Assembly: GCA_023474345.1 (NCBI GenBank)
Contig: JAMCXS010000023.1
Location: 1-64,000 of the forward strand
Source: Acidobacteriota bacterium
GTDB taxonomy: Bacteria > Acidobacteriota > Terriglobia > UBA7540
Direction: 5' to 3'
Length of the DNA: 64,000 nucleotides
Position numbers and translations under genes: made by a program. Shown in pieces: positions 57,765 through 59,733 of this stretch; position 1 is the first letter of the stretch, and each line of letters opens with the position of its first letter. The notes under the pieces are model-generated. The model worked only from the letters and a program-made list of their open reading frames with translations, had not been told where the DNA came from and ran no database searches.

Positions 57765-57850
57765 CGAATCTCAAATACGAATCTCAAATCTTCAATCTCA
57801 AATTTCAAATCTCATATTTCAAATCTCAAATGCCCGTACGGCAATTACCA
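57765..57850. repeat. degenerate AATCTCAAAT simple-repeat tract
   Basis: A run of related heptamer-like units (AATCTCAAAT, ATCTTCAATCTC, AATTTCAAATCTC, ATATTTCAAATCTC) that lies between the 56222 gene and the hicAB repeat. A short version lies near 56118-56137. It is AT-rich compared with its surroundings. Confidence 0.5.
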
Positions 57851-57989
57851 ATTCAGAACTCGCAATCTGTAATCTGTAATTTGTAATTTGCGATTCATTT
57901 GCCCCCACCCCTGACGCGTAAGCTCCGTTGCATTTCCCGCGCCTGGGATGTATATAGTTGGGGTTTCGATTTTGCGGTTACCGCGCGGC
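57851..57989 (+). repeat. 139-bp direct repeat, copy 1, upstream of hicA
   Basis: Matches 58533-58671 over its whole length with scattered differences. Shared blocks include ATTCAGAAC, GCAATCTGTAAT, CCCCTGACGCGTAAG, TTGCATTTC, CGCCTGGGATGTATATAGTT and ATTTTG...TTA.CGCGCGGC. It contains a promoter-like sequence (TTGCAT-17 bp-TATATA at 57928-57956). Together with copy 2 it brackets hicA and hicB. Confidence 0.8.
57928..57956 (+). promoter_or_regulatory. promoter-like sequence upstream of hicA (repeat copy 1)
   Basis: TTGCAT (57928-57933), 17 bp, TATATA (57951-57956), about 80 bp before the proposed hicA start. The same arrangement is kept in repeat copy 2 at 58610-58638. Confidence 0.5.
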
Positions 57990-58499: not shown

Positions 58500-58532
58500 C
58501 CCGTTGCCATCGCCCGTCGCCTTTAACCCGGA

Positions 58533-58671
58533 ATTCAGAACGCGTAATTTGCAATCTGTAATTTGTAATTTTCGATTTATTTCTCTAAACCCCTGACGCG
58601 TAAGTTCCATTGCATTTCACCCGCCTGGGATGTATATAGTTAAGGTCATAATTTTGTGGTTATCGCGCGGC
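58533..58671 (+). repeat. 139-bp direct repeat, copy 2, downstream of hicB
   Basis: Second copy of the repeat at 57851-57989, in the same orientation. It begins 33 bp after the hicB stop and runs up to the RAYT palindrome array. Its promoter-like sequence is preserved. Confidence 0.8.
58610..58638 (+). promoter_or_regulatory. promoter-like sequence in repeat copy 2, facing the RAYT region
   Basis: TTGCAT (58610-58615), 17 bp, TATATA (58633-58638), a duplicate of the hicA promoter. It points toward the palindrome array and the RAYT gene about 280 bp downstream. Confidence 0.45.
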
Positions 58672-58698
58672 GGCCAGGCACATTGCAGCTGGTAGCGA

Positions 58699-58918
58699 CG
58701 CTCAATCGGCCTCCTGATTGAGCCTGGGTTCGTCGTGTTTCAAAAGGCCCACGGACAGGAAGGCTCTGTCCGTGGCTGCCAACTGAGACGTTCCAGCGGA
58801 ACGTCTCTACAAGGGCGCGCAGGGCGACCGCGTGCGAAGGTAGGGGCGATTCACGAATCGCCCTGGCGCGGTAATTCGGCGACCACATCTACGAGGGCAA
58901 TTCATGAATTGCCCCTAC
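58699..58918. repeat. left five-palindrome REP array of the RAYT locus
   Basis: Five successive palindromic units: (a) CGCTCAATCGG...TGATTGAGC 58699-58723; (b) GCCCACGGACAG...CTGTCCGTGGC 58747-58776; (c) GAGACGTTCC-AGC-GGAACGTCTC 58785-58807; (d) GTAGGGGCGATTCACGAATC and onward 58840-58864; (e) GGGCAATTCATGAATTGCCC 58895-58914 followed by CTAC. The same five units in the same order recur at 59514-59733 after the RAYT gene. Confidence 0.9.
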
Positions 58919-58920
58919 GG

Positions 58921-59481
58921 ATGCCAAGGATGGAATTTGAAGTTCATCACCGGCGCTCGCTTCGGTTGCGCGGATACGATTATTCCCTTCCTGGAGCCTA
59001 TTTTGTCACCATCTGCACGCACAAAAAGCAGCACCTGTTGGGGCAAGTCGTTGAAGGGGGAATGTGCCGCAGCGAATTCGGGAAGGTGGTGGAATTATAT
59101 TGGCGAGATTTGGAACATCGTTATCCGCAGGTCCGGCAGGATGCGTTCGTGGTGATGCCCAACCACGTTCACGGCCTCATCGAAATCGCGACTCCCGAAC
59201 CGGCCCGGAGCGGAAGTTGGCCAACCACGAGCGGCGGGGCAATTCGTGAATTGCCCCTACGGGAGCGACGGCGCGGCATGGCCCTGTCAAAAATCGTGGG
59301 ACGCTTCAAAATGACGGCTGCAAAGCGCGTCAATGAAATACGCAGGACGCCCGGCGCGGCCGTCTGGCAGCGCAATTATTACGAACACATCATCCGCAAC
59401 TTACACGAGCTCGAGAGCATCCGGGAATATATCCGCACAAATCCCGCCCGGTGGGACACTGACCCCGAGAATTACAGTTGA
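58921..59481 (+). CDS. REP-associated tyrosine transposase (RAYT, Y1/HUH family)
   Basis: A 186-residue single-strand transposase-like nuclease. Motifs: RRSLRLRGYDYSLPGAYFVT, HHLLG-type strand QHLLGQVVEGG, the HUH pair in VVMPNHVHGLIEI (His82, His84), LSKIVGRFKMTAAKRVNE and VWQRNYYEHIIRN (Tyr153/154; the family nucleophile tyrosine lies in the C-terminal half but I cannot fix it without alignment), then IREYIRTNPARW. The frame extends upstream through the REP array to 58735, but homology starts at 58921-58930. Residues 106-113 (GAIRELPL) come from an internal REP palindrome. RAYTs are thought to act on REP palindromes like those flanking the gene. Confidence 0.92.
   Translation: MPRMEFEVHHRRSLRLRGYDYSLPGAYFVTICTHKKQHLLGQVVEGGMCRSEFGKVVELYWRDLEHRYPQVRQDAFVVMPNHVHGLIEIATPEPARSGSWPTTSGGAIRELPLRERRRGMALSKIVGRFKMTAAKRVNEIRRTPGAAVWQRNYYEHIIRNLHELESIREYIRTNPARWDTDPENYS
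59236..59260. repeat. REP palindrome inside the RAYT coding sequence
   Basis: GGGGCAATTCGTGAATTGCC continuing to CCCTAC: a unit of the same type as (e) in the flanking arrays. It is read in frame as GAIRELPL in a variable loop between the HUH strand and the LSKIVGRFK helix, so the gene appears intact despite it. Confidence 0.85.
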
Positions 59482-59513
59482 GGGCAGGGGGTGGGACCTG
59501 GTGTGGCCGGTAA

Positions 59514-59733
59514 CCACGCTCAATCGGGCTTGATTGAGCGTGGGTTCGTCGTGTTTCATAAGGCCCACGGACAGGAAGGCTCAGTCCGTGGCTGCCAACT
59601 GAGACGTTCCAGCGGAACGTCTCTACAAGGGCCACAGGGCGACGGCGTGCGAAGGTAGGGGCGATTCACGAATCGCCCTGGCACGGAAATCGGCGACCGC
59701 ATCCACAAGGGCAATTCATGAATTGCCCCTACA
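59514..59733. repeat. right five-palindrome REP array of the RAYT locus
   Basis: Direct-orientation copy of the left array: (a) CCACGCTCAATCGG...GATTGAGCGTGG 59514-59543; (b) 59563-59592; (c) 59601-59623; (d) 59655-59680; (e) 59709-59728 plus CTAC. The intervals between units are also nearly conserved, so the two arrays are copies of one roughly 220-bp block. Confidence 0.9.

Follow-up and report, generated by a model that had tools for sequence, protein, structure and literature searches.

In this work, we address the question of how one ordered set of palindromes came to stand on both sides of a RAYT gene in an Acidobacteriota genome, and whether this set is a mobile element in its own right. 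The window, i.e. the whole stretch of DNA that was analysed, comprises 64,000 nucleotides of contig JAMCXS010000023.1 (G000:C24), and the genome searched amounts to 2.0 Mb in 33 contigs (75% complete). The first-pass annotation had described a block of five different palindromes in fixed order, repeated directly around the gene, and had proposed a composite mobile unit or a BIME-like cassette transferred in one piece. The locus is real and well delimited; it is a REPtron of subclass 2.4 whose compound block is unusual (Table 1).

Two copies of the block and their surroundings

The two blocks are in direct orientation and 92% identical over 231 columns (BLAST E=3.6e-90), a similarity far beyond chance. 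All five palindromes (a to e) occur in both copies in identical order; the bracketing is thereby confirmed, and the coordinates first given for it are correct, apart from a deviation of some 12 bases at the left end. The identity includes the unique spacers between the palindromes, not the palindromes alone, which speaks for one copied sequence and not for parallel accumulation. The block-to-block alignment starts at the GGTAG of a (2-3 bases before it also match) and ends on the right exactly at the CTAC of e, and outside these limits the sequences are unalike, with no clear homology. Only 2 bases separate the end of the upstream block from the first possible ATG of the RAYT gene; judging from sequence and fold, REP hairpins would lie in the leader of this gene if transcription begins upstream.

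Table 1 Features of the RAYT locus (positions in the window)
Feature	Position	Strand	Remarks
Compound block, upstream copy (a>..<b, <c, d>..<e)	58688..58918	+	outer tags GGTAG (58691), CTAC (58918)
Compound block, downstream direct copy	59506..59732	+	
REPIN a-b, upstream	58691..58780	+	inverted GG[TC]AGCCACG-type REP pair, outward tags; one long hairpin when folded
REPIN a-b, downstream	59509..59596	+	
Single REP c, upstream	58785..58810	-	GTAGAGACGTTCCGCTGGAACGTCTC on minus strand
Single REP c, downstream	59601..59626	-	
REPIN d-e, upstream	58840..58918	+	GTAGGGGCGATTC... paired with ...GAATTGCCCCTAC, outward tags
REPIN d-e, downstream	59655..59732	+	
Palindrome a	58700-58723 upstream; about 59516-59541 downstream		
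Palindrome b	58749-58775 upstream; 59565-59591 downstream		
Palindrome c	58785-58807 upstream; 59601-59623 downstream		
Palindrome d	58844-58863 upstream; 59659-59678 downstream		
Palindrome e	58895-58914 upstream; 59709-59728 downstream		
RAYT / TnpAREP subclass 2.4 gene (placed by motifs and REP features), intact Y1-type	58921..59481	+	second in-frame ATG 58930, 183 aa from there; NHVH, WQ, YIRTNP
In-gene REP, e type	59237..59260 (palindrome 59237-59256)	- (GTAG tag)	in frame, encodes GAIRELPL

The locus is neighboured by a hicAB-like gene pair on one side and a weakly GH5-like gene on the other. This toxin-antitoxin pair, HicA/HicB-like, immediately precedes the block and is itself surrounded by a 140-bp direct repeat (57850-57989 and 58532-58671, 84%); 16 bp lie between the second repeat copy and the block start. 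At the beginning of the window there is a 300-bp direct duplication (1-300 and 1963-2262, 97%) with a perfect double-foot REP, GTAGGGGCGATTCATGAATCGCCCCTAC, in each copy.

Three REP families and their dispersal

The orientation of the GTAG tags, the same in both block copies, reads a>...<b, <c, d>...<e. The palindromes described as five different ones are indeed five, in the order given, but they belong to only three REP families and form two REPINs, a-b and d-e, with the single REP c between them. Family a/b has GG[TC]AGCCACG in common, family d/e shares GTAGGGGCRATTC, and family c is GTAGAGACGTTCC. Nor was five the full inventory, as a sixth palindrome, of the e type, is present inside the RAYT coding sequence. 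Both d and e carry GTAG tags, and double-foot, symmetric GTAG...CTAC copies of their family are found at C8, C25, C32 and C24:68-95. The a-b and d-e pairs show an inverted arrangement, outward tags, a conserved spacer and several genomic copies, and REPIN d-e folds as a single long hairpin (RNA fold z-score -5.4 for 58836-58960). In being dispersed inverted REP pairs they resemble REPINs and BIMEs as presented in the available text of PMC3116915 and PMC2817692; unlike the elements presented there, the block unites two REPINs from different families with one lone REP, fused and copied as a unit.

Pattern and similarity searches, which give lower bounds on copy number in a 75% complete assembly, located REP c at 15 sites (13 away from the locus) and the d/e family in 25 matches at up to 2 mismatches. 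Besides the two copies at the RAYT locus, d-e REPINs with recognisable spacers occur three more times in the genome (C1, C30, C22), and a further a-b REPIN once (C19) and twice in the same-genus genome G001, where a-b and c elements are present without a close copy of the RAYT. The full block was found nowhere in the 2.0-Mb assembly (75% complete) beyond the two sites flanking the RAYT, nor in 60 relatives, where single modules only were seen among the matches listed. Since the modules disperse separately and the full block exists only at the RAYT locus, the order a-e is a local construct. The block is therefore a locally built compound, later copied whole, and a dispersed five-part element was rejected on the strength of these genome-wide searches. 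The idea of a cassette moving as a whole stands locally, where the block was copied tag-to-tag, and fails for a dispersed ordered unit; likewise, joint dispersal of a to e holds within the REPIN modules a-b and d-e but not for the five-part unit, as a-b, c and d-e are separate. A composite transposon moving as a dispersed unit was also rejected, there being two block copies and one RAYT copy and not the several sites expected of such a unit.

Palindromes of the a/b type also adjoin a different, DHWH-type Y1 gene on C25 and, on C30, what by eye resembles a decayed Y1 gene; a-b may be the REP of this other, DHWH-type RAYT. The same genome contains three DHWH-type Y1 transposase genes (L034 1216-1857, L033 1235-1876, L032 950-1830), which are not NHVH and not close to subclass 2.4. 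Other palindromes (GGGTAGCGCAGAGTC..., GGGTAGCGAGGACCGCCGG...) lie close to them, and at least two of the three have such palindromes both upstream and downstream. At another site (L013 1504-1966, C25:191349-191811) a unit of ~435 bp with an e-type double-foot REP is present twice in tandem, with other palindromes between.

The RAYT gene and the palindrome inside it

The gene between the blocks is a RAYT, as first annotated, according to its matches to profiles NF047646 (65 bits, under its 80-bit cut-off) and PF01797 (1.5e-6) and to Foldseek matches of its predicted structure to the REP-bound RAYT structure 4er8 and to ISDra2. Its motifs and REP features place this small, domesticated transposase gene in TnpAREP subclass 2.4 (RAYT group 4). 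The core motifs NH[IFV]H, WQ and YIxNNP are present, YIxNNP with T in place of its first N, and the invariant residues in A1 are H79, H81, W146, Q147, Y167, N171 and P172. The gene is flanked by GTAG-tagged REPs of a family that also has double-foot copies, and the e-type palindrome is in frame between the HuH and Y motifs; this palindrome together with the motifs underlies the assignment. An IS200/IS605 insertion sequence, for which multiple near-identical copies per genome are expected, was rejected, as the genome has a single close copy of the gene, its other Y1 genes being only 27-35% identical. No plasmid match to the locus was obtained. A phage collection search gave one match, a Y1 protein 33% identical over 97% of the query, encoded on an unannotated 'Bacteriophage sp.' sequence of 4.8 kb that was obtained from human faeces (MT839559.1:109-591, H1).

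The in-gene REP falls in the linker between the HuH motif/strand and the next helix, modelled with low confidence as a loop (about residues 90-120). In-gene REPs in subclass 2.4 have already been published (PMC6006769). In-frame REPs within protein genes, probably situated in flexible linkers, have likewise been reported for intragenic GTAG REPs (PMC3733652); the present REP differs in residing in the transposase gene and in matching the flanks of that gene. For comparison, 69 matching frames were collected from relatives and public genomes, of which 54 had both motifs, some of them from the same or related genomes. In these 54 genes the HuH-Y linkers held 41 palindromes in 12.6 kb, a clear concentration as against 2 in 18.2 kb of remaining gene sequence, and 35 of the 54 had a linker palindrome, where codon shuffles predicted 1.55. 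In the 26 genes with both elements, the linker core agreed with its own flanks at 16.3 of 20, compared with 11.2 for the flanks of other genes (0 of 20,000 permutations, shared ancestry being ignored). Two RAYTs of one genome, L085 and L096 of G003, have different REPs, each matching its own gene. The phenomenon of in-gene REPs is thus known, and the quantified match of the in-gene core to the flanks is the addition made here. Two other subclass 2.4 homologues (L174, gene 1485-2927, and L172, gene 1525-2382) have HuH-Y linkers of 1098 and 522 nt, composed of low-complexity repeats containing REPs, and are an extreme case of linker growth.

Origin of the bracket and its place among RAYT loci

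Repeats shared by the upstream and downstream 300-nt flanks were found for 30 of the 54 RAYT genes and, among 346 control intervals drawn from loci of this kind, for 12. Around the RAYT genes 22 were direct and 5 inverted (14 and 1, respectively, at 45 bp or more), the control intervals having overall 5 direct and 6 inverted. GTAG-to-CTAC repeat limits were seen also in L083, L088, L090 and L154. Bracketing among subclass 2.4 homologues is hence mostly direct, a statement to be taken with the caution that REPINs hold both orientations.

We regard it as probable that the locus is a subclass 2.4 REPtron in which a compound of the cognate d-e REPIN and a-b and c elements of other families was copied whole across the gene, most likely by HuH/tyrosine strand transfer. 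The d-e family would be the transposase's own REP, present also in frame inside the gene, and a-b and c, other REP families of the genome presumably served by other RAYTs, would have landed next to it on one flank of the gene. This compound, with outward GTAG tags at its left (a) and right (e) limits, may then have been copied in one piece to the opposite flank, in the manner of one over-long REPIN; the likeliest step is cleavage of a single strand at the outer REPs followed by its transfer. TnpAREP enzymes cut single-stranded REP, but not its complement, at CT dinucleotides and then rejoin the ends (PMC8266576, whose biochemistry concerns groups 2 and 3); a unit with outward tags at both ends suits such an enzyme, which favours copying of the compound in this manner. 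The anatomy of the block, tag orientation, tag-to-tag limits, separate modules, the d-e REP inside the gene and the direct bracketing in relatives support this course of events, and from them we infer enzymatic copying of the block by the RAYT. Its weak point is the outer left tag, that of a, which comes from a non-cognate family, so that either one enzyme would have to act on both tags, unlike as they are, or a second enzyme must have taken part.

The most serious competitor, which we nevertheless hold to be unlikely, is homologous recombination, whereby a circle or donor with one block and the RAYT was joined by RecA into a chromosomal block without any enzyme action on the REPs. Direct copies, as observed and as common in relatives, are its necessary outcome, and it accounts for the presence of the whole compound, beyond the cognate REPIN, on both sides; it requires, however, a pre-existing identical block at the target, while no third copy was found in the genome (75% complete) or the 60 relatives and neither a circular nor an empty form was seen. 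The comparison with an empty site suggested in the first pass came to nothing, since a search of the 60 relatives with the right-hand neighbour gene gave no more than one partial match, in G001, which lies in unrelated surroundings and is not syntenic. Segmental tandem duplication of block and RAYT, with one of the two RAYT genes lost afterwards, fits the direct orientation, and the 300-bp duplication on the same contig tells that such events occur here. However, homology stops at a REP tag at either end, and the sequence behind the downstream block shows no remnant of a RAYT, which leaves this route improbable. That the same REPs reached the two sides independently, by accumulating at random in a region rich in REPs, would draw on the ability of REPs and REPINs to gather near RAYTs (PMC2817692); this idea is refuted by the common order, orientation and identity of the copies, spacers included, and has next to no chance of being right. 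Neither an empty site nor an intermediate was found by which RAYT copying could be told from homologous recombination or tandem duplication with loss.

Gammaproteobacterial RAYTs have been described as always flanked by inverted REPs (PMC2817692). The present locus shares with them GTAG-tagged flanking REPs, sometimes in BIMEs, and REP-RAYT co-evolution, whereas the subclass 2.4 genes studied here are mostly bracketed by direct REP or REPIN copies; the nearest single REPs at our locus, e and a, are still mutually inverted despite the direct block copies. It differs from the subclass 2.4 REPtron, as far as the available text of PMC6006769 describes it, in that three unlike REP families make one compound in two direct copies, and neither the bias to direct brackets nor a quantitative co-divergence of in-gene and flanking REPs was found stated in that text. 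One might suppose that subclass 2.4 genes are directly bracketed because the gene acts or acted as an IS200-like unit, in which same-strand REPs on both sides and the matched in-gene REP would allow excision or copying of the entire REPtron by the enzyme, with mixed compound REPINs mobilised by their outermost tags; we offer this wider proposal as a doubtful one.

The mode of REP spread is unsettled, and a three-family compound copied tag-to-tag offers a natural experiment that bears on the definition of the mobile unit. Direct bracketing together with a matched in-gene REP leads to testable predictions for subclass 2.4.
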